Source of the DNA: Ferrovibrio sp.
Lineage (GTDB): Bacteria > Pseudomonadota > Alphaproteobacteria > Ferrovibrionales > Ferrovibrionaceae
Assembly: GCF_029255545.1 (NCBI RefSeq)
Contig: NZ_JANLJJ010000015.1
Coordinates: 23,424-87,423 of the forward strand
DNA: 64,000 nt
Direction: 5' to 3'
Positions within the stretch are counted from its first letter, which is position 1, and each line of letters begins with the position of its first letter. Shown here piece after piece: positions 30,991 through 54,315 of the stretch. Under the pieces are notes generated by a model that was not told the DNA's origin, did no database searches, and worked only from the letters and a program-made list of their open reading frames with translations. The translations under genes were made by a program, and so were the position numbers.

Positions 30991-31231
30991 CAGGGTTCAG
31001 GCAGGGGCAGCTCTATGCCTCCTTGGACTGACACGGGAACCGGTCCACGCCTGTTCAGGTGGGCGGAGTTGGCCTGTCTGTCTTTGGCTTCCAGTGCCAC
31101 AAGCGGCCAATTCCGGGGAAACCGACCCCGGCGTCGGATAAGTACAGTTCCCATCATTTCTCCAACCGACATCCCGCGTTTCCATGGGCATCTTCAGAGG
31201 CGTCACAGACATCAGCCTCAACGGAGAAGAC

Positions 31232-31639
31232 ATGACGCCCAAGTATCCCGCCCGCCATTCCCCCGTCGCCCGCTACCTGGAGCAGGCCATAGACCGCAGC
31301 GGGCTACCCCAGACCGAGATCGCCGAGGCCATGGGCTATGAAAGGCCGAACATCATTTCCATGTTCAAATCGGGGGCGACAAAAATCCCGATCGAAACCA
31401 TCCCCAAGCTGGCTGAGGTGCTGGGTGTCTCCGAGCTGTACTTCATGAAGCTGGCGCTTGAGGAGTATCACCCGGAGATGTGGATGGTCATCGAGCGGAC
31501 CTTCGGGAAGCTGGTATCAGAGAACGAGTACGAGATCGTGGATGCCATCCGAACCGCCAGCGCCGGCACTGATCCGGAACTCACCGAGGAGTTGGAGAAG
31601 GAGCTGTTCCGGCTGTTCGACATCAAAGTGGCCAGTTAG
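31232..31639 (+). CDS. XRE-family HTH protein
   Basis: VARYLEQAIDRSGLPQTEIAEAMGYERPNIISMFKSGATKIPIETIPKLAEVLGVSELYFMKL. Confidence 0.8.
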   Translation: MTPKYPARHSPVARYLEQAIDRSGLPQTEIAEAMGYERPNIISMFKSGATKIPIETIPKLAEVLGVSELYFMKLALEEYHPEMWMVIERTFGKLVSENEYEIVDAIRTASAGTDPELTEELEKELFRLFDIKVAS

Positions 31640-32451
31640 GAAAAGTCCGCCTCACCGGGAGGCGTCCTGGGAACCGAGGAGCCGGGCAGAACAAACGTCC
31701 GGCTCGACTTGGCTCCCCTGGGGCGCCCCCGGCTCACCTGATAGTCGATGCCTGCCTGCCGAAGGATCGACCTGACCTGGCTGGCATCCCACTTGCCTCC
31801 CCGGGCGGTGTCATATCCCCGCTTCGCGAGCCCCTCCGCGATCTTTGACAGCGGCATGGTGGTTCCGTGCTTTTCCTTCCAGGGCTCCAGAAGTTCATGC
31901 TGGATATAGGCAGCGACGCGGTTGGCTCTCCGCTGTCCCCTTGCCGTCTTCCGCTGGGCTGCCACCTGACGGGCCTTCCTGAGCCCCTCGGGATTCCCAA
32001 CCTGCTTTCCTTCCTTGCGGCGGCGCCTGTGCGTCTTCTTGGCGGCGTTTGAGAGGTGTTTGCCCCGAACCGCTGCGGCGGCCGCCTTGGCATCAATAAC
32101 TGCCGTCGCTATCGGCCCGCTGGTGGCTGAGATCAGCGGTACATTGGCTTCCTTCAGAAAACCACAGAGCTTCTCATTCCGGGTGATCCGGTCAAAATCC
32201 CATACGATGAGAGCAGCCCCATACTTCTGACATTCCCGGATAGCCTGAAACAGCTTCTTCCGTTCGTCCTCTTCCGGGTCTCTCGTCGCCGAACCAACCT
32301 CACTGAACCAACGGATAACCTGCTGACCATTGGCTTTGACATAAGCCTCTATGGCTTCTCTCTGCACTCGTTCGCCCAAGCCTCTCTCGTGCTGCTGCCT
32401 GCTGGAAACGCGGATATAGCCAATCAGATAGGGAGACTGAGGGTCGTTCAT
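31636..32451 (-). CDS. Serine recombinase (resolvase/invertase family)
   Basis: YLIGYIRVSSRQQHERGLGERVQREAIEAYVKANGQQVIRWFSEVGSATRDPEEDERKKLFQAI...ALIVWDFDRITRN. Confidence 0.85.
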   Translation of the reverse strand: MNDPQSPYLIGYIRVSSRQQHERGLGERVQREAIEAYVKANGQQVIRWFSEVGSATRDPEEDERKKLFQAIRECQKYGAALIVWDFDRITRNEKLCGFLKEANVPLISATSGPIATAVIDAKAAAAAVRGKHLSNAAKKTHRRRRKEGKQVGNPEGLRKARQVAAQRKTARGQRRANRVAAYIQHELLEPWKEKHGTTMPLSKIAEGLAKRGYDTARGGKWDASQVRSILRQAGIDYQVSRGRPRGAKSSRTFVLPGSSVPRTPPGEADFS

Positions 32452-32627
32452 GAAATTAATATATTGGATTGTATGTAGCATTAGCAATAGATAATTCATA
32501 TTAATTGATTTATTGGTATTAGTGATGAGGATTCAATCACTTAATAGGATTTTGACACGGTCAGCGGTCTACATGGGCGGGCCGAATTCATCTTGCCAAT
32601 TTTTGCCAAGCCGCTAGATTTCCCTCC

Positions 32628-32879
32628 ATGAGCACCATGAACATCTCCCTTCCCGAAAGCCTCAAGACCTTCGTGGACGAACAGGTCGATCAGCGCGGCT
32701 ATGGGACCAGCAGCGAGTATGTCCGGGAGCTGATCCGCCGGGACCAGGACCGGGTGCGCCTGAGGGGCCTTCTGCTGGCCGGCGCTGCCTCCGCCTCGGC
32801 GGGAGAGGCCGACGGCGCCTACTTCGACGACCTGCGCCAGCGCGTCCGCAGGGCCAACCCGGCCGACGCGAAGCAGTGA
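32628..32879 (+). CDS. ParD-like antitoxin (type II TA)
   Basis: MSTMNISLPESLKTFVDEQVDQRGYGTSSEYVRELIRRDQDR. Confidence 0.9.
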   Translation: MSTMNISLPESLKTFVDEQVDQRGYGTSSEYVRELIRRDQDRVRLRGLLLAGAASASAGEADGAYFDDLRQRVRRANPADAKQ

Positions 32880-33205
32880 GGGCCAGGCCGGTCATCCCGC
32901 GCGAGCAGGCCAACCGGGATGTCGAGGATGCGATCGCCTTCTACCTGGGTGAAGGTGCTGAGGCGGCGGCGCTCGACTTCATCGATGCCCTGGAGCAGGC
33001 ATACGCCCATATCGGCCACCTGCCGGCTTCCGGCGCACCCCGCTATGCCCATGAGCTGAACCTGCCCGGCCTGCGCTGCTGGCCGCTGAGTCGCCATCCC
33101 TGGCTGGTTTTCTACATGGAGGGCGCAGACCACATCGATGTCTGGCGCGTCCTGCATGGTAAGCGGGATATTCCGGCGTGGATGATGGGGCCGGAGTTCG
33201 GGTGA
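32876..33205 (+). CDS. ParE/RelE-like toxin (GTG start)
   Basis: REQANRDVEDAIAFYLGEGAEAAALDFIDALEQAYAHIGHLPASGAPRYAHELNLPGLRCWPLSRHPWLVFYME...WRVLHGKRDIP; 4-bp overlap with ParD. Confidence 0.9.
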   Translation: MRARPVIPREQANRDVEDAIAFYLGEGAEAAALDFIDALEQAYAHIGHLPASGAPRYAHELNLPGLRCWPLSRHPWLVFYMEGADHIDVWRVLHGKRDIPAWMMGPEFG

Positions 33206-33401
33206 TAGCCAAGACGCTTTCTGCTGGCTGGCGTCACTCCTAGCTCCAGTTATCTGCCTGCATCCGCACATTCCCCCAAGCAGTGTTCTGTTTTTGTTTG
33301 ATTCGAATATTCGACCTCCAGTATCATATGATTTTCCCGAGTCCCCACTGTATTCCCAATACGGAGTAAGTATTCGGCTAACCTCTACTGGATGTGGTGT
33401 A

Positions 33402-35966
33402 ATGATGGCGGGAAATCGACTAGCCGTCTCTATTCTGGCACCCTTACTGCGAGCAACAGAAGAACCGTGCCCCGTTCTTTTGCTGGGTGCGGGAGCATCC
33501 TTTCGTTCAGGTGTGCCCACAGCTGCAGATGCGGTAAAGCAGATTGCCCGCCTCGTTTACTCGGAGCGGGAATTAGGTGGTTCGCGGCCGCCGGAGCGGG
33601 TAAAGCCGTCCGAATGGGAACCTTGGCTTCAAAATCAGCCATGGTTCATTCATGGGGCTGATAGGCTCGCTGAGAATTTTCCGCTCGCAGTCGAACACCT
33701 TCTTTATCCCGCTGATTTTCGGAAGCGCGTCATTCTGGAATTGATGCGCCCACGAAACGTTATTAGCGCCGGCTATGGCGTACTTTCAGATTTCGTCATG
33801 CGAGGATTGATTCGAACGATTCTCACCACAAATTTCGATCCTTGCCTTCCCGATGCACTGAGAGCACGGCAACCGCATATCCGGCATATTCACGAGGTCA
33901 ATCGTACACCGACTGACTTTGATCAATTTAATGTATTTAACAAATGCCAAATCGTTTGGCTGCATGGCCGCGCAGAGCACTATTCCGACAAAAATGCAGC
34001 CGGAGAGATCGGTGCGCCTGATCCCGAATTGGTGTCATTACTTCGTCCGTTGCTCGACAGCTCACCTATCATTGTCATCGGCTATCGCGGTACCGAGCCT
34101 TCGATCATGGAGGGTATATTCGCACAGATCAAAGCTGGCCGACTTGATTTTCCACACGGAGTCTATTGGTGCATTCGGCGCGGAGAAACACCGCATCCGA
34201 ACGTTGAAGCCTTGAGACGCCGCCTGGGCCAGAATTTCACCTTGCTAGAAATAGATGGGTTTGATGAGCTCCTGACCGATCTTTCACAAGAGCTTGTAGA
34301 TTTTGATCGTTATCATGCGAGCAATATAAATCCGCCGTCGGTTCATCAGTTTCACGCGTTTGACGAACGTGTGTTGGACACGGCCTCCCTTGATGATCTT
34401 GACTTGGATTTGGCCCTGCCGGTATTGCGGCAGTATTGCGAGAAACTTAAGCGAGCGCCTGTTAGTCGAGACACCTTGTTGGCACTGATGAGGGAGCAGG
34501 GCCTTCTAGTTCAGAGCGATGGAAAGGACAAGGTGACAACTGGCGCTATTCTACTTTTTGGCAAGCGCCCTCAGGATTTCTTCCCTCATGCAGTCGTGGC
34601 GGTGACTGAGGCAGGAAAGAAGCGTGAGATATATGAAGGCAATCTAATCAGCCAACACAGACAGCTTCTGGAAAAGCTTGAAACACCTGAAGTCAATCCA
34701 CTACTGAAAGTCAAGAAGCGCCGCCAACATGATGAGCAGCCTGCTTATCCGCCACGCGCACTTGTCGAGCTACTAGTCAATATGTTGGTCCACCGGGATT
34801 ACGAGGCTCGAGAGCCGGCTTGCATAGACATTCAGCTAGGCTCTGAGATTGCATTTTTGAACCCGGGCTCGTTAACCAAGAAACTTGCCGGGCAATTTAC
34901 CATCGAACGAGACGGGCGCATTGTCGTTTCAGAAAACGTTACAGATCAGCGTAATCCGTCACTTTGCGACATCTTCTTCGGGATAAGCGCGATGGAACGC
35001 GCCGGCACGGGCTTGATCGACGTTGGCCAACTCATGCAGGAGTGCGGAGGGCGGTGCGCGTTCTATAATTACGACGCAGATGCACGGTTTGAAGCAAAGA
35101 TTGCTCCGCCTCAAGCATCGGCTGGCTCGCGCAGTATCGCCCGCTCGGAAGTGCCAACCGGCATGTACATCTTGAATGCCATACCCTTCTCCGTCATTCC
35201 CGACGCACTATCAATCATCCAGTTAAAGATGCACTGGCGTGAACGCCCTCGGGATTTCGACTTCTCTGAATGCGGAACATTCGTTGCTAGAGGTGACACG
35301 CTGTGGAGCTTCGCGCCCCTGCCTCTTCTAGCGGCACAACTTTCGCCAATAATTGATGTGGATGCCAGCGTCACCGTCGCACGCGAAGAAGTTGAGGCTT
35401 CTCCAGATGCAAAGCGCGTCTTGTCTTGGTTGCTGCGAAATCATTGGGAGCGCCATTTACTGAGCTTCAAGCAAGACGGCCTGATCCTGGAGAGGGGGCA
35501 TAAGCATCGCGCTTACTTTGAAGGCCGGAATGGTGACGGACGAACTGTCGTCTGGAATGGTCAGCGAAAAGGCAATCGACGGGATGTCGTCAAGAGGCGT
35601 GGTGAAGGTGTTCGTACATGGTTTGAGAATGAGGGTATAAGCTACGAGATTGTTCAAATCGGTGGGCATTGGTGCGTTCGCATTAAGCCATTTTATATGT
35701 TCACTGGAAAGAACTCCCGCTCGCCATTACCGTCGTTCACGCGCGCTGCAAAAGCGACGAGTCGCATGAAATTTGACCGCAACAAGAATGTTGAAGGCGA
35801 TTTAGCATTCTGGAGCAGCTTTTTAGGGCGCGGGAACGAAACAATAAACATAGGCCATCAGCATGTGGACGACCTTATCCTCGATTCGTCATTTCTAACC
35901 GTAGAAGTGCCAGAGATAGGACTTATCGATGATGGATCTGAAGATCAAAATCGAATGCCTGCCTGA
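33402..35966 (+). CDS. SIR2 - RecG-C/HATPase_c_4-like - APAZ protein (partner of short pAgo, system 1)
   Basis: SIR2: PVLLLGAGASFRSGVPTAADA, ILTTNFDP, VWLHG, IIVIGYRGTEPSIM. Middle: GAILLFGKRPQDFFPHAVVAV...PPRALVELLVNMLVHRDYEAREPACIDIQLGSEIAFLNPGSL...RNPSLCDIFFGISAMERAGTGLIDVGQLMQECGG. C-terminal ~300 aa in APAZ position before the pAgo ORF. An upstream in-frame ATG exists at 33294. Confidence 0.85.
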   Translation: MMAGNRLAVSILAPLLRATEEPCPVLLLGAGASFRSGVPTAADAVKQIARLVYSERELGGSRPPERVKPSEWEPWLQNQPWFIHGADRLAENFPLAVEHLLYPADFRKRVILELMRPRNVISAGYGVLSDFVMRGLIRTILTTNFDPCLPDALRARQPHIRHIHEVNRTPTDFDQFNVFNKCQIVWLHGRAEHYSDKNAAGEIGAPDPELVSLLRPLLDSSPIIVIGYRGTEPSIMEGIFAQIKAGRLDFPHGVYWCIRRGETPHPNVEALRRRLGQNFTLLEIDGFDELLTDLSQELVDFDRYHASNINPPSVHQFHAFDERVLDTASLDDLDLDLALPVLRQYCEKLKRAPVSRDTLLALMREQGLLVQSDGKDKVTTGAILLFGKRPQDFFPHAVVAVTEAGKKREIYEGNLISQHRQLLEKLETPEVNPLLKVKKRRQHDEQPAYPPRALVELLVNMLVHRDYEAREPACIDIQLGSEIAFLNPGSLTKKLAGQFTIERDGRIVVSENVTDQRNPSLCDIFFGISAMERAGTGLIDVGQLMQECGGRCAFYNYDADARFEAKIAPPQASAGSRSIARSEVPTGMYILNAIPFSVIPDALSIIQLKMHWRERPRDFDFSECGTFVARGDTLWSFAPLPLLAAQLSPIIDVDASVTVAREEVEASPDAKRVLSWLLRNHWERHLLSFKQDGLILERGHKHRAYFEGRNGDGRTVVWNGQRKGNRRDVVKRRGEGVRTWFENEGISYEIVQIGGHWCVRIKPFYMFTGKNSRSPLPSFTRAAKATSRMKFDRNKNVEGDLAFWSSFLGRGNETINIGHQHVDDLILDSSFLTVEVPEIGLIDDGSEDQNRMPA

Positions 35967-37437
35967 GCCAAAGCTACTATTTGGCAGAGGCGAAACCGGC
36001 GTCGAGCCGCGCCGCATTATGGCAAAAGTGGGCGCCGCTGACGCTGTTACACCAAAGGAAATTCGTATCGCACTGGTTGGGCCTTCCGAAGAGGTGCAAT
36101 TAGCCCGTGGTTGGTTGCCAAGACTCAATAGTTTGGCGATTGCGCGAGAGAGAAGCGCTCGGCGCTACCGCGATTGGCCCGGTGCTCCAAAGGCGCTAGG
36201 TGTGACGTTTGTGATCGAAGATCGTTTTGTACGCCCTTTAGATGACGAGAAATTCCGGCTGGCACTCAGCAAATCCTCCCCTTCGGAGAAATTTGATGAA
36301 CTATTAGATTTATTCGACTCGAAAATTCAGGCCTTTTTCGGTGATGTCCGCCCTGATTGCATCATTGTCTGCCTTCCCGATGAGGCGGCAGACATGAGAA
36401 TCAGCAACCCACGGCTTTCCACGGGGGAGCGGTTAGCTCTCGAGCGCTTGCAACGTGAAGAGGAAAACGACCAGCTTTCTTTATTCCAACCAACATCGGA
36501 GGAGCAAAAGGCAGCCGAAGACCTACGAACACAGGCTGAAGATCTGTTATTTCGCACCTTTTACCGGGCGCTGAAGGCTCGGATTATGACACACCAGAAT
36601 CCAGTTCCGATTCAGGTTGTGCGACGAGATACCTTTGTTCGCCCCGACAATGAGGGACAGAGCTACGCGACCCGCGCATGGAATTTGGCCCTTTCCTTAT
36701 ACTATAAATCTGGTCACGAACCTTGGAGGCCGGCAAGCCTACCAAGTAACACCTGTTTCATCGGCATTTCCTTTCATCACCTTAAGAGACGCGAGGGTGA
36801 GGTCGTCTACGCCAGTGTGGCGCAAGCTTTCTCAAATGAGATAGAGCCATTTGCCCTTAAGGGCTCGACACTGCCTCACGATCAGCGAGGTGAAGACCGA
36901 CAACCCTACCTCAAAGAAGCCCAAGCAGCCGAGCTGATGAAGGGGGTCCTTGACAAATACGAGTCTCTTGCGGGCATCTTGCCTTCTCGTGTTGTCGTTC
37001 ACAAGACGAGCGGTTATGCCGCTGAGGAAGAAGCCGGATTCCGTCGCGCCGCCGAACAACGCGTTCCAGTTTGCGATCTCATCTGGTTGAGAAGTACCGC
37101 ATTCGGGTTGATACGCAAAGGGACTCAGGAGCCATGGCGAGGGACGTTGTGTACAATTGGGGATGAATCGTACTTATTTACCAGCGGATATGTACCATGG
37201 TGGGATGAATATCCTGGCCCGCATATTCCGGCGCCGCTTCAGATTGGCTCCTGCGGCCCGACTAATATTCGAGAACGAGCACAGGAGATTTTAGCTCTGA
37301 CCAAAATGAACTGGAATTCCAGTGAAGGTATAGGGCGTCATCCGATCACTATCTCGTTCGCACGCAAGGTCGGCATGCTAATGACTGAGCTATCCGATAA
37401 TCAGACGCCTAACCCTTCATATCGATTTTATATGTAG
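35929..37437 (+). CDS. Short prokaryotic Argonaute (MID-PIWI), system 1, predicted catalytically inactive
   Basis: Shares EPKLLF, (C)FIGISF, RVVVHKTS, ALTKMNWNS, PITISFARKVG and C-terminal YRFYM with the island 2 pAgo; overlaps the upstream SIR2-APAZ ORF by 38 bp. Confidence 0.85.
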   Translation: MMDLKIKIECLPEPKLLFGRGETGVEPRRIMAKVGAADAVTPKEIRIALVGPSEEVQLARGWLPRLNSLAIARERSARRYRDWPGAPKALGVTFVIEDRFVRPLDDEKFRLALSKSSPSEKFDELLDLFDSKIQAFFGDVRPDCIIVCLPDEAADMRISNPRLSTGERLALERLQREEENDQLSLFQPTSEEQKAAEDLRTQAEDLLFRTFYRALKARIMTHQNPVPIQVVRRDTFVRPDNEGQSYATRAWNLALSLYYKSGHEPWRPASLPSNTCFIGISFHHLKRREGEVVYASVAQAFSNEIEPFALKGSTLPHDQRGEDRQPYLKEAQAAELMKGVLDKYESLAGILPSRVVVHKTSGYAAEEEAGFRRAAEQRVPVCDLIWLRSTAFGLIRKGTQEPWRGTLCTIGDESYLFTSGYVPWWDEYPGPHIPAPLQIGSCGPTNIRERAQEILALTKMNWNSSEGIGRHPITISFARKVGMLMTELSDNQTPNPSYRFYM

Positions 37438-37537
37438 CGCCTAAAAAACCGCTCCTATTTGCACCCGCATTTTCACGGAATATTGGCCAGTATCCGCCCC
37501 CCCTAGTCCTCTCCATTATCCATCTTCGAAGCACACA

Positions 37538-37557
37538 CTTGCCACACCTATGCCACA
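37538..37557. repeat. Island-2-type arm-site sequence inside island 1 (CTTGCCACACCTATGCCACA)
   Basis: One mismatch to 56199..56218 (CTTGCCACACCTGTGCCACA) at the right end of island 2; related to CTTGCCACAACGTTGCCACAACAA at 39000..39023. Confidence 0.7.
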
Positions 37558-37579
37558 CGGGCGGTGCGGAAAGCCGCTC

Positions 37580-38638
37580 TCACCCCAGCGAGTACCACGC
37601 CCCCCGCGCCTTGCCGTGCCGGCGGATGCGCCCCTCCGCTGTGAGGTCGCGCAAACGGACCTTGAGCGTGTTGCGGTTGGCGCCGGTGATCTGCGCGATC
37701 TGCGCGATGGTGAGGCGGTGCTGGTCGCGCAGGGCTTTGAGTATCCTGAGCGACAGCTCGGGCAGATCGGCATCCCTGCCCTGCTGCTGCCGCTCGCGCT
37801 CCAGCCGCGCGGCGAGACCGTCCTTCTGCCGCTTGAGACACCGCAGGAAAAAGCCCAGCCAGGGCTCCCAGTCGGGCGTCTCGCCCTTCAGCGTCGTCTG
37901 GGTGCGCCGCAGGGCCTTGTAGTAGAGGTCCTTGTTCTCCTCGATCACACGCTCCAGCGAGGCGTATGGCACATAGGCATATCCGGCCCGCAGCAGCAGC
38001 AGCGAGGTGAGCACGCGCGACAGCCGTCCGTTGCCGTCCTGGAAGGGATGGATGGCCAGGAAGGCCACGATGAAGGTGGCGATGATGAGCAGCGGATGAA
38101 GGGCCTCTTCCTCCAGCGCCTTGCGCGTCCAGGCGACCAGCTCTTCCATCTCGCGCGGCGTGTCGAAGGGCGAAGCCGTCTCGAACACCACACCGATCTC
38201 GCGGCCCTCCTCATCGAAGGCCACGACATTGTTGGGCAGTGTCTTGTAGGTGCCGCGATGGCGCTCGTCCTTGTCGCTGTGCCGCAGCAGGGTCTGGTGC
38301 AGCTGCCGGATGTGGTTCTCGGTCAGGCGCAGATCGGCATAAGCCTCGAAGACGAGATCCATGGCCTCGGCATAGCCGGCGACCTCCTGCTCGTCGCGCG
38401 TCCGGAAGGAGTCCATCGTGAGCGCCCGCGAGAGCAGGTCTTCCACCTCGGCATCCGAGAGCCTGGCGCCTTCGATGCGCGTGGACGAGCCGACGCTCTC
38501 GATCGTCGCCACCTTGCGCAGGGCGTTGAGGCGGTCCGGCGAGAGCGTTTTGAGGGCCTCCCACCGCCCCTTGAACTCATCGATTTCGGCGATGAGCTTC
38601 ACGAGGTCGGGGCCGAGGGTGATCCTGGGCTCCCTCAT
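37580..38638 (-). CDS. Fic-family protein (AMPylase-like) with C-terminal wHTH
   Basis: IHPFQDGNGRLSRVL Fic motif; GTYKTLPNNVV; C-terminal LTIAQIAQITGANRNTLKVRLRDLTAEGRIRRHG. Confidence 0.93.
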   Translation of the reverse strand: MREPRITLGPDLVKLIAEIDEFKGRWEALKTLSPDRLNALRKVATIESVGSSTRIEGARLSDAEVEDLLSRALTMDSFRTRDEQEVAGYAEAMDLVFEAYADLRLTENHIRQLHQTLLRHSDKDERHRGTYKTLPNNVVAFDEEGREIGVVFETASPFDTPREMEELVAWTRKALEEEALHPLLIIATFIVAFLAIHPFQDGNGRLSRVLTSLLLLRAGYAYVPYASLERVIEENKDLYYKALRRTQTTLKGETPDWEPWLGFFLRCLKRQKDGLAARLERERQQQGRDADLPELSLRILKALRDQHRLTIAQIAQITGANRNTLKVRLRDLTAEGRIRRHGKARGAWYSLG

Positions 38639-38906
38639 GTCTGGGGCATCCGCATATCCAATTTCATACCCGATTATACCCAATAATGCCCAATTTGCAC
38701 CGGCCTTCTTTGGACGTCTTTTGGATATTTATGGATATGGAATTGGGTATCTGCCCAGGGCTATCCAGCCGCCGCAATTCGCAGGGATGCGGTCAGGCGG
38801 CCCGGGATACGCCTCTTGCCCCTGTCACGCCCGACTGCTACACATTGTGTAACAGTTACAGGCGGTTAGCCTGCTAACCCATTGATCCGTAAGGAGCCAC
38901 GAAAAA

Positions 38907-38936
38907 GGGTTCGATTCCCCTCGGCTCCACCAATTT
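38907..38936 (+). repeat. Middle att site (junction of island 1 and island 2)
   Basis: GGGTTCGATTCCCCTCGGCTCCACCAATTT identical to 20083..20112; only the tRNA 3' end, no full tRNA. Confidence 0.92.
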
Positions 38937-39011
38937 TCCACCTTGAAAAACAGTGACTTGCCCGTGAGGAATCTCGGGTCGAGTGCATCATGAAGGCTGC
39001 TTGCCACAACG

Positions 39012-40025
39012 TTGCCACAACAACGGGATGGCATGGCATCAATTCGCAAGCGTGGAACCGCGTGGGAGGTTCAGGTCCGTCGTCGCGGCCTGTCATCTGT
39101 CACCAAGAGCTTTCAATCTCGCAAGACAGCCGAGATATGGGCGCGGCAAATCGAGCAGGAGATCGAGCGCACCGGCGTGGTGGTGGATCGTGAACCACTA
39201 CGTTCGACCGTGTTACGCGATCTTTGTGAACGATACGAACGGGAAGTGTCATCGAAGAAACGGGCCGGAGACCGAGATGTATACTTCTTTCGCAATATCG
39301 TTCGCAGCCCTTTAGGTCGCCTGACTCTCGACAACCTCAGACCAGAAAATGTGGCTGCCTATAGAGACCTGCGCTTGAAGGCTGTAGGTCCGGCCACGGT
39401 CTGCCGTGAGCTTGCTCTCCTGCGCCATGTCTTGGAGATCAGTCGCAAGGAATGGGGTTACCCGTTCACGAGCAACCCGGTCAAAGATATTCGCTTCCCT
39501 CGATTGCCGCCGCACCGCACTCGCCGCCCGACGAGTGAAGAACTCGGACGGATTCTGGATGTGGCCAAGACATACCCAAACCCGCTCGTTACACCCCTGA
39601 TTGTTCTTGCACTGGAAACCGGCATGCGGCGTGGTGAACTGCTCGCCGCTCGATGGGATGGCCTGAGCACGCAGGACGCCACGCTCCACCTTCCGATAAC
39701 GAAGAATGGCTTCCCCCGCCTCGTTCCTCTGTCACCCGTCGCACTTGCAACTATCTCGGCCCTACATCAATCCGATGATCGAATCCTGCCGATTTCGGAC
39801 AATGCGGCACGCCTTGCGTGGGGGCGGATACTGAAACGAGCCGGCGTGAAAGACCTTCATTTTCATGATCTGCGACATGAAGCTATCAGCCGCTTTTTCG
39901 AACTAGGACTTTCAATCACAGAAGTCGCGACAATCAGTGGTCATCGCGACTTCAGAATGCTTTTCCGGTACACCCATCCCCGAGCGTCAGAAATCGCCCG
40001 GAAACTCGCCGCGAGACCGCATTGA
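39012..40025 (+). CDS. Tyrosine recombinase/integrase of island 2
   Basis: MASIRKRGTAWEVQVRRRGLSSVTKSFQSRKTAEIWARQIE...LETGMRRGELLAARWDGL...LHFHDLRHEAISRFFELGLSITEVATISGHRDFRMLFRYTH. Confidence 0.93.
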   Translation: MPQQRDGMASIRKRGTAWEVQVRRRGLSSVTKSFQSRKTAEIWARQIEQEIERTGVVVDREPLRSTVLRDLCERYEREVSSKKRAGDRDVYFFRNIVRSPLGRLTLDNLRPENVAAYRDLRLKAVGPATVCRELALLRHVLEISRKEWGYPFTSNPVKDIRFPRLPPHRTRRPTSEELGRILDVAKTYPNPLVTPLIVLALETGMRRGELLAARWDGLSTQDATLHLPITKNGFPRLVPLSPVALATISALHQSDDRILPISDNAARLAWGRILKRAGVKDLHFHDLRHEAISRFFELGLSITEVATISGHRDFRMLFRYTHPRASEIARKLAARPH

Positions 40026-51151: not shown

Positions 51152-52576
51152 TTACATAAAGAACCTGAACTGATACGGCGTACGTCCCAGACCATTGATG
51201 CGCTTGATTACTCGCGCAAGAACCTTCGCATAGCCCATTGTGACAGGCAGGGGATCATAAAGCGCGTCGTTGTTCCAATTCATTTTCGACAAGGCAAGCG
51301 CCGAACGGACACTATCGTCCCATGGCCCGTGACCCGCATGTCTAACGAGTTTTATCGGACGAGGCGTGCTGCGCTTGCCTTGAAAGTATGGCGCACGATC
51401 TGCAACTCCCCCTACTTCACCATGAATCCAAAGCAGGCTTTCTCTTGGCCCAAGGCTCAGGGCCGTCCCTCGTTGCACGGGATAAGCCGCCGGGCTACCA
51501 CGCTGTCCATCACCTCTCGCTTGCTCGATCTTTACGCCGCGCCAGCTAACGTCCTCCACAACCTGAATCAGGTCGACCGACTCGCACAGGTGTAGCGCCT
51601 CCATACAGCCGTCAATCTCTTCTGCCTTGAACTCGGTCGTTTTATGGACAATTACCCGCCGTGGAGTGCGGCCCGCATGTCGCCGCCGATACAAGTCCAA
51701 CGACCTTGTCATCACTCGGAACATTTCTGTGCGCGAGAGAAATGGGTTTTGTCGTTGCACTTCAACATCGTGCGCGTCGTAAGCCACGAACTCCAGACCC
51801 GATCCCTCTGCATCGAACACTTGACTGCAACAGGTCACGAATCTAGGCCGGTCAGATACGACCGGTCGAACGGCGTAGGAAATACCCACATAAGCCGTTT
51901 CCGGGTCTGTGTCCGCCAGCTTCCACGGAACGCCACCGGCCTTCGTGTATAGCGCAAGACCGATTCTCCACATGACACTGGCGCGGTCATTGTAGGCGAT
52001 AGCCTTGTCTTCTCGGACAAGCTGCACCGGAATGCCACGCGCAGCCGTAACAGCTTTAATATGATCATGGAGATCAAAATCGTCTTCCGGTCCACCCACG
52101 TACCCACGCTTCCATCGCGCCGGAATGTAAATGAAGACCACATCGAACTCGTTTCGATGTGCTTCGAGAACTTGAATTGCACGAAGAATACGGTCTGCCA
52201 GAACTACGTGAGGCGTATTAGATTTATCAAATTCTGCCTGAAGGGATTTGTCGAGCTTGATATGGCAAGTCTTATCCGCACCACGCATGTGGACGTTGAA
52301 GACGGTATTGAATCCACGCCACTTCGGAACGTATTCCTTACGCTCGGAGGGTTCATGTTCCTCGTTTAGTTCCTTCATGAAAGCGTAGAGCTTCGGTGCA
52401 TCTTCCTCCGGAGCAATTGTCGCAACTCGGATCGGGTCTGGGATCAAACCTGATGAATACGGTCCGAATCTCGACAGGCCTCGTAGGGGATGGATGTCCG
52501 TGTCTGACACGCGATCCGCATGGAACAGCAGCTTTGGTTCAGGGAACCAAAGGTGTGGAGCGATCTCACTTGTCAC
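51152..52576 (-). CDS. Short prokaryotic Argonaute (MID-PIWI), system 2, predicted catalytically inactive
   Basis: LWFPEPKLLFHADR; YVGISYAVRP; RRVIVHKTTEFKAEEI; ALSKMNWNND; PVTMGYAKVLARVI; YQFRFFM C-terminus. Confidence 0.9.
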   Translation of the reverse strand: MTSEIAPHLWFPEPKLLFHADRVSDTDIHPLRGLSRFGPYSSGLIPDPIRVATIAPEEDAPKLYAFMKELNEEHEPSERKEYVPKWRGFNTVFNVHMRGADKTCHIKLDKSLQAEFDKSNTPHVVLADRILRAIQVLEAHRNEFDVVFIYIPARWKRGYVGGPEDDFDLHDHIKAVTAARGIPVQLVREDKAIAYNDRASVMWRIGLALYTKAGGVPWKLADTDPETAYVGISYAVRPVVSDRPRFVTCCSQVFDAEGSGLEFVAYDAHDVEVQRQNPFLSRTEMFRVMTRSLDLYRRRHAGRTPRRVIVHKTTEFKAEEIDGCMEALHLCESVDLIQVVEDVSWRGVKIEQARGDGQRGSPAAYPVQRGTALSLGPRESLLWIHGEVGGVADRAPYFQGKRSTPRPIKLVRHAGHGPWDDSVRSALALSKMNWNNDALYDPLPVTMGYAKVLARVIKRINGLGRTPYQFRFFM

Positions 52577-54315
52577 GAGCGAATCCTTCTCGAAAAAGCC
52601 GTGTCACCGCCCAGTTTGAATACGGCGTCAATCCCGGCCCCGATATTCAAGGCTCGCAATTCCTCCCCGCCGTTGGAGAGGACACCAGCCCAGTAGGCGA
52701 TGAGATCATTAAGTTGCTTGTTGTATCGCCGAACCGTCCGCTCTCTGGCAAAGTCCGTTGCTGCAGCCTTGTTCTCTGGTGTTGCACCCTCAAATACGGT
52801 TCTCGGTTCGACCGTCAGCCAAAGCCGGTCACCCGCCCAATCAAGACGAACCCCAATTCCCTCAAACCATCGAAGCTCCGGATGCCCTGACACCACGCCG
52901 GACAACTGCTTCACGAGAGACTTCAGATCGGACCACAGCGCATCATTGGCGTCGGCAGGGAACAAGAGATCGGTGTGACGGCGATGTACCAATCGCAGTT
53001 TCAGCGTGCGTGCGAGGGCTCGCGAGACGGCTTCTCGAAGCAAACCACGTTCACCGGAATCAAACCGCATCCGATGCGGTTCAATTGGGTGAAGATCAAA
53101 TTCGGATATGCCGAACGGCTCGAACGTCTTTCGTACATCTGCATCCGATCCATATGCCAGAACCCCAGCCTTGACTCGCGTCACCAAGATATTGGTGCCA
53201 GCGGCTTCCACTGCGGCTCTGACCTCCGCGTATCCATTTATTTTGCACTGTACACGCCGGCAATGAGTCGGAATCGTTTGCACCGGAAGCGCGTTCAATC
53301 GGACCACTGGGTAGCCCTTTGTGCCGCTCGGGATCGGTACGGCGGATACACGCTTACGCTCTGAAGCAAATGCATCGAGGATAGTAGTGTCGAGACCTGC
53401 GGTGAGGCGAATCAGGTCTCGCATCACTTCTTCGAAATTATCGATCCGAACCACAGCCGCATCAATCCCATTGGCAGCGGCTGTTGCGATTAGGTCTGTG
53501 ACACGTGGCAATGGCTGACTGTCCCCTCTATGAAGCCAGAACAGTCCACTCGGAAACGCCCCATTCTGCTTCGCGGCGGCCACTAGCGTGTCCATGACCG
53601 AGTCGTCGCGTCCACTGTAGCCCACAACAACCAGTCCGGACCGTAGGCAAGTGTCTTGCAGCACCTGTCCGAGCTTGGCGTCTTGCTGGCGGAGTTCGTC
53701 TCCAGTATTTTTTAGTCGCCGTGAGCGGAAGTCACCGTGTAATTTGACCTCCATCGGCCAACGTTCGCTGCGGAATATTTCGTCTATTCCGCTCTGCCCC
53801 TCAAGATGAATGCTGGTCAGAGCACTGGTGCTGTCGAAGACTTTGGCACATGCGTCGGCAACCAAGGCGTCAAAATTCGTTGTCCAGACAATTTTGCACA
53901 ATCCCGCCTTCATTAGGGTCGCGAGTGCAATATGGCCGTACGACGGCTTCGCTCCCTTTAGCTTCCCATCGAGATATGTCCGGCGGTCCCCCTCGTTTGG
54001 CCACACGGCTTCGAAGAGATCGGCATATTCGGTGGAGGTATCGGGCGCTGGAAGATTCCCGGCAGAATCAACGAACGACTGAAGTTGGGCGCGTACGTAA
54101 GGATTGGAGAGATCGGCAACAGATTTGGCTGACACCTTGCGCTGACTCAAGAACAGTTGTTGCTTGAACTCCCAGATCATCTCGCCAGCCGTCGGAACAC
54201 CTGCGGCTGCCGAAGCGCCCGCGCCCAGCAGCCACATGATGTTCGCAGCACGCATAGAGTATCTTCGCGCGAAGTCGTCTGCGTCGACTTCGGCAACACC
54301 CGACTCACCTGCCAT
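52573..54315 (-). CDS. SIR2-APAZ protein (SPARSA-type partner, system 2)
   Basis: IMWLLGAGASAAAGVPTAGEM; IVWTTNFDALV; VKLHGDF; VVVGYSGRDDSVMD; followed by a ~270-aa APAZ-position C-terminus; ATGA overlap with pAgo. Confidence 0.9.
   Translation of the reverse strand: MAGESGVAEVDADDFARRYSMRAANIMWLLGAGASAAAGVPTAGEMIWEFKQQLFLSQRKVSAKSVADLSNPYVRAQLQSFVDSAGNLPAPDTSTEYADLFEAVWPNEGDRRTYLDGKLKGAKPSYGHIALATLMKAGLCKIVWTTNFDALVADACAKVFDSTSALTSIHLEGQSGIDEIFRSERWPMEVKLHGDFRSRRLKNTGDELRQQDAKLGQVLQDTCLRSGLVVVGYSGRDDSVMDTLVAAAKQNGAFPSGLFWLHRGDSQPLPRVTDLIATAAANGIDAAVVRIDNFEEVMRDLIRLTAGLDTTILDAFASERKRVSAVPIPSGTKGYPVVRLNALPVQTIPTHCRRVQCKINGYAEVRAAVEAAGTNILVTRVKAGVLAYGSDADVRKTFEPFGISEFDLHPIEPHRMRFDSGERGLLREAVSRALARTLKLRLVHRRHTDLLFPADANDALWSDLKSLVKQLSGVVSGHPELRWFEGIGVRLDWAGDRLWLTVEPRTVFEGATPENKAAATDFARERTVRRYNKQLNDLIAYWAGVLSNGGEELRALNIGAGIDAVFKLGGDTAFSRRIRS

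Follow-up and report, generated by a model that had tools for sequence, protein, structure and literature searches.

The closest described relatives of the gene pair analyzed here are systems in which a short Argonaute (pAgo) is associated with an APAZ protein carrying an effector. SPARDA and SPARHA, in which DREN-, SMEK-, or HNH-APAZ proteins are paired with a short pAgo, use nuclease effectors and belong to the S2B clade, which also includes a type named DHS-like-APAZ (Cell Res 2025). The guide-bound SPARDA dimer is converted by the target into a filament that tetramerizes the effector domain, and the SIR2 and TIR NADases of SPARSA and SPARTA are likewise activated by tetramerization (PMC12205087). 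In the SPARSA protein GsSir2, N142 and H186 are the named NADase residues (PMC10781750). For bacterial Schlafen RNases, in turn, a fusion with a "minimal histidine kinase" and a wHTH has been described (PMC12839542). A protein combining SIR2, APAZ, and a further block has been catalogued under three names: as PADLOC models PDLC02402 (Aga_SIR2-PNTD1-PNTD2, 876 aa) and PDLC02418 (Aga_SIR2-Kinase-PNTD1-PNTD2), which have the same domain set beside a short pAgo as the locus described here; as og_40 with SIR2_1, Schlafen, and APAZ (Ryazansky 2018); and as a "SIR2 + histidine kinase" APAZ protein listed as a double effector (Lu 2023; PMC10810196). No fold assignment or experiment was found with any of these entries, and literature searches, with subscription papers and preprints outside their scope, returned no characterized SIR2-HATPase/Schlafen-APAZ system. 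The original prediction, made from the DNA sequence of this locus, had called the architecture the strongest candidate in the window for an under-described variant; it is not undescribed, given these entries, but it is not well characterized either. The architecture itself is thus known, and the present analysis adds its fold, the limits of the module, the pattern of conserved residues, and the clade.

The window, by which we mean the whole analyzed stretch of 64,000 nucleotides, encodes on its forward strand an effector subunit and an adjoining short pAgo (table 1). The effector ORF starts with an ATG at 33402, and its coordinates as well as all motifs quoted in the original prediction are correct. 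The start of the pAgo gene overlaps the stop of the effector gene by up to 38 nt. The effector has the domain order SIR2 (1–310), RecG-C/HATPase_c_4-type module (~319–575), and APAZ (~588–838). Catalytically active Argonautes carry an Asp (GxD) at the position occupied by the PIWI motif GISFHH in the pAgo of the window; because this Asp is missing, the PIWI domain is expected to be catalytically dead and the protein not to cut. About 14 kb away, at 51152–54315 on the reverse strand, lies a second system, a standard SPARSA pair (PDLC02419, E 7e-185; pAgo_I, E 8e-201). The two effector partners have the lengths reported earlier, 854 aa and 580 aa, but differ by 274 aa rather than the approximately 310 aa that had been given.

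Table 1. Features of the SIR2-GHKL-APAZ/pAgo locus and its surroundings in the window (residues refer to the effector protein)
Feature	Coordinates	Strand	Basis or remark
XRE regulator	within 31184–40025		
Serine resolvase	31636–32499	−	
ParE-type toxin	32876–33205	+	
SIR2 - GHKL module - APAZ effector subunit, 854 aa	33402–35966	+	PADLOC PDLC02402, E 3e-155, residues 19–833
SIR2 domain (residues ~1–310), predicted NADase effector	33402–34331	+	Pfam SIR2_2; PDB SPARSA GsSir2, E 8e-10; GAGAS, TTNFD, and HG motifs invariant
N144, matching catalytic N142 in GsSir2	33831–33833	+	Alignment; 100% conserved
H188, matching catalytic H186 in GsSir2	33963–33965	+	Alignment; 100% conserved
RecG-C/HATPase_c_4-type module (residues ~319–575)	34356–35126	+	AF2 model, Foldseek, profile, alignment with canonical AlbA_2-HATPase_c_4 proteins
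N-box ELLVNMLVHRDY (residues 456–467)	34767–34802	+	E456 and N460 100%, H464 and R465 99% in 70 sequences
NPGSL loop where GHKL proteins have the G1 box; adenine-binding Asp absent	34860–34874	+	Alignments
RNPSLCD motif (517–523)	34950–34970	+	R517 and N518 99% conserved
G2-box-like RAGTGL (533–538)	34998–35015	+	G535 and G537 99%; hhalign with kinase GTGLGL box
APAZ domain (residues ~588–838), nuclease (S2B/IIb) type	35163–35915	+	Profile versus PDB; Foldseek
Short pAgo (MID-PIWI*), 502 aa	35929–37437	+	PADLOC pAgo_I, E 6e-135; partner gene adjoining in 67 loci including the window
Fic protein	37580–38683	−	
Phage-type integrase	39012–40025	+	
System 2 (SPARSA), second gene	51152–52576	−	PADLOC
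System 2 (SPARSA), partner, 580 aa	52573–54315	−	PADLOC

It had been proposed that genomes with this architecture beside a pAgo be counted, and we found approximately 66 further loci in which a SIR2-GHKL-APAZ gene adjoins a pAgo gene. By record title their hosts are Alphaproteobacteria, Acidobacteriota, Bacteroidota, Poribacteria, and Planctomycetes, and one locus is on an IMG/VR contig; among 385 genomes of the class to which the window belongs, five encode the whole architecture, its own genome included. No third conserved gene was found across the 67 loci with both genes, the commonest other neighbor family being present in five of them, and no response-regulator gene is a conserved neighbor in this set. 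As the loci have no further neighbor in common, we regard this as a two-gene system. At two loci (L036 and L093) the partner gene is split into two adjacent ORFs, through decay or assembly error. The IMG/VR contig (L102) carries the whole SIR2-GHKL-APAZ gene together with its pAgo, so that a virus-like element may be a vehicle for the system. In the window, the surroundings (31184–40025) form a variable stretch of mobile and defense-type genes whose flanks are not conserved in the genus. A search of 31 genomes yielded no definable clean empty site in the genus; full-length copies of the left-flank transporter were confined to other genera within the family, and no further full-length copy of the right-flank hydrolase was found among these genomes.

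Several other proteins were seen in the course of these searches. Many phage- or satellite-like IMG/VR contigs (L104–L137) and Vibrio phage records (H9 and H10) encode proteins of 630–930 aa with an N-terminal SIR2 close to that of SPARSA; in the two that were scanned (L104 and L116) the C-terminal part had no Pfam match, and the architecture differs from SIR2-GHKL-APAZ. A genome of the same genus (G203:C1:2531889-2533415; L167) encodes a short pAgo whose partner is seemingly of the TIR type (SPARTA), and in another case (L165:518-2512) the protein paired with a TIR-clade short pAgo is 665 aa long, has a long N-terminal extension, and is possibly of the (Mrr-)TIR-APAZ type.

The block between SIR2 and APAZ had been read as the HATPase_c_4-like module of Schlafens without its AlbA_2 domain, and Pfam searches of the homologs as well as structural matches bear this out. 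In the window protein itself the HATPase_c_4 model (PF13749) matches residues 507–556 below threshold (18.1 bits, E 0.0027; the Pfam cut-off is 26 bits); across the family, 49 of 56 homologs match (E up to 0.01, best E 2.4e-10). All 56 homologs contain SIR2_2 and none contains AlbA_2 in the same Pfam analysis; taken together these counts indicate that the architecture is not due to chance. When residues 308–600 were predicted alone with AlphaFold (AF2), the model had a pLDDT of 90.8 and a pTM of 0.86. Among solved structures, Foldseek ranked the four chains of 3lmm (DIP2311) first, at E 7e-12 to 5e-10; histidine kinases and PDH kinases with bound ATP or ADP came next, at E 5e-4 and weaker. When a profile of this region was searched against the PDB, 3lmm was the single match (E 3e-10), and hhalign paired the block with histidine-kinase ATPase domains from the same genome at a probability of 94%, with RAGTGL opposite the GTGLGL box. 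The middle block is therefore predicted to have a GHKL fold, as had been suggested, and an extended APAZ or SIR2 domain is ruled out by both fold and profile. A RecG helicase was rejected as well, because "RecG C-terminal" is only the label of the Pfam model and no member has a helicase domain in Pfam.

Canonical proteins in which AlbA_2 and HATPase_c_4 were both confirmed by Pfam align with the effector from about residue 319, just past AlbA_2, through a helical/alpha-beta linker (319–448) and the GHKL core (449–570). By this alignment the module is complete, with SIR2 occupying the place of AlbA_2. Bacterial Schlafens of the AlbA_2-HATPase_c_4 type, to which 3lmm belongs, thus have the same whole post-AlbA_2 module, linker and GHKL motifs included, but carry AlbA_2 and a wHTH or C-terminal region where the window protein has SIR2 and APAZ. 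How the domains are arranged relative to each other is not fixed by the full-length model because its pTM is low (0.51). A second link between the module and Argonautes is the PADLOC pAgo model PDLC02394, in which positions 54–441 match an AlbA_2-HATPase_c_4 protein and positions 840–1098 match pAgo; in a scan of 299 genomes this model gave matches to its N-terminal part only.

Of the hallmarks of the GHKL fold, the E and N of the N-box and the G2 glycines are present, and the E, N, and H of the N-box are common to the canonical AlbA_2-HATPase_c_4 family. The Asp of the G1 box (DxGxG) was not found in the effector family alignment, which has an NPG or SPG loop instead, and the equivalent residue is also not Asp in the aligned canonical relatives. 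ATP binding by the module may consequently be lost or altered, and ordinary ATPase or kinase readings are weakened by the missing Asp. One such reading gives the module, as a kinase or ATPase, a toxic or signaling output of its own besides SIR2, as suggested by Lu et al. (2023). The kinase-like GHKL fold, the strictly conserved residues of the N-box and the G2-like box, the word "Kinase" in the PADLOC name, and the listing as a double effector (PMC10810196) are in keeping with this, but in addition to the absent Asp no member of the 56 has a Pfam match to a phosphoacceptor-histidine (DHp) domain or any second kinase domain for dimerization or phosphoacceptance, there is no response regulator or other conserved neighbor gene, and the HATPase_c_4 modules of Schlafens accompany a separate RNase effector and so are not the effector there. 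We consider a second effector improbable.

Another reading treats the module as a fossil of an AlbA_2-HATPase_c_4 ancestor in which AlbA_2 was swapped for SIR2, with no ligand and no role beyond spacing SIR2 for assembly. In SPARDA a flexible loop is all that separates the effector from APAZ, and such effectors do function; the absence of the G1 Asp also fits. However, E456, N460, H464, R465, R517, N518, G535, and G537 are 99–100% conserved in sequences down to 27% identity, which is too strict for a spacer, and the GHKL block is missing in no full-length member. A structural spacer is therefore an explanation that we hold to be unlikely, although it deserves to be kept in mind. The occurrence of the module between an effector and a C-terminal region in two immune families favors a role as transducer.

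The original prediction had read this partner as a longer version of the partner in system 2. Another candidate explanation is a SPARSA (S1) system that has diverged and whose long SIR2-APAZ linker contains an insertion. In the window protein SIR2_2 is found at residues 139–265 (E 3.6e-8), and N144 and H188 are in effect invariant in 70 sequences; with its catalytic residues intact the domain is a predicted NADase. SPARSA (GsSir2/Ago and system 2) likewise has a SIR2 effector of the NADase type in which both the N and the H are present, as well as APAZ and a dead short pAgo, the domain order is the same at both ends, and the SIR2 domain of the window resembles that of SPARSA with 28% identity. 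Nevertheless, in the SIR2 tree the SIR2-GHKL systems form their own clade (99/99), whereas SPARSA SIR2s are found elsewhere, grouped with stand-alone SIR2 proteins (94/95). The APAZ profile searched against the PDB matched SPARHA (E 4e-36), SPARDA (8e-23 to 8e-14), and SPARTA (0.0035), but nothing from SPARSA up to an E of 0.1. Foldseek with the full model gave matches to SPARSA, to the APAZ chains of SPARHA and SPARDA, and to 3lmm, with a TMt of 0.75 to the APAZ of SPARHA. When pAgo and APAZ were concatenated, the tree united the SIR2-GHKL systems in a single clade (99/98) that is sister to DUF4365/SMEK nuclease systems (SPARDA/SMEK; 99/99), and a forced grouping with SPARSA was rejected (AU p=0.0047). 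The main limit of this tree is that SPARSA is represented by only four rows and that long pAgos do not serve as its root. The pAgo-only tree is compatible with a SPARSA grouping, which it did not reject (AU p=0.20), and by itself left open an insertion in a SPARSA partner; the concatenated tree rejects this, and a diverged SPARSA origin is accordingly very improbable.

Phylogenetically, then, the pAgo and APAZ core is placed in the S2B clade, in a lineage separate from SPARSA. Reading the partner as a lengthened SPARSA partner is not supported, as the core groups with nuclease-associated S2B systems and the SIR2 domain lies outside the SPARSA clade. SPARSA differs from the present system in its APAZ/pAgo and SIR2 clades, in having no GHKL module, and in a length of 583–587 aa versus 854 aa in the window. 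SPARDA and SPARHA have the same type of core but a nuclease effector; the nuclease domain that marks them is absent from the 56 members according to Pfam, with SIR2 in its stead and the GHKL module between effector and APAZ. We take the "DHS-like" domain of the published DHS-like-APAZ type to be a SIR2 superfamily fold. The simplest reading of these sequence comparisons is that SIR2 and GHKL became attached to an Argonaute core of the nuclease type in an event independent of SPARSA, and the window contains two SIR2-Argonaute systems of separate origin.

We favor, with some confidence, the view that the pair is a two-gene RNA-guided abortive-infection system in which the GHKL module is the transducer to NAD+ hydrolysis by SIR2. 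The dead short pAgo and APAZ would form a guide- and target-sensing core of the SPARDA/SPARHA kind, and pairing of this core with invader DNA would lead to a higher-order complex. Assembly would be relayed via the GHKL module and bring the SIR2 domains together, NAD+ hydrolysis would be switched on, and the cell would be killed or stalled. The guide RNA, the DNA target, oligomer-driven activation, and NAD+ depletion are inferred from the relatives, with homology to SPARDA as the ground for expecting filaments or oligomers. The GHKL module would be a conserved transducer that in Schlafens sits between the AlbA_2 RNase and a C-terminal sensor region, with SIR2 in the AlbA_2 slot and APAZ in the sensor slot. 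It would probably dimerize or change shape with a nucleotide or other small ligand, which would set a second condition for SIR2 activation; gating by a ligand, raised in the original prediction as nucleotide-gated control of the NADase, is a guess. More tentatively still, and as a possibility that we would not yet expect to hold, the Schlafen-borrowed module might be a nucleotide- or metabolite-gated switch between the RNA-guided Argonaute sensor and the SIR2 NADase, so that target DNA and ligand state would both be needed for suicide. We know of no such AND-gate in short pAgo immunity.

Although this type of system spans several phyla, the literature that could be searched contained no experiment on it; E456, N460, N144, and H188 are defined residues for a first one. 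That an Argonaute core of the nuclease clade carries a SIR2 domain recruited independently means that short pAgo lineages have exchanged effectors. Lying between effector and C-terminal region here as well as in Schlafens, the GHKL module is a candidate, open to testing, for a transducer of general use in bacterial immunity.
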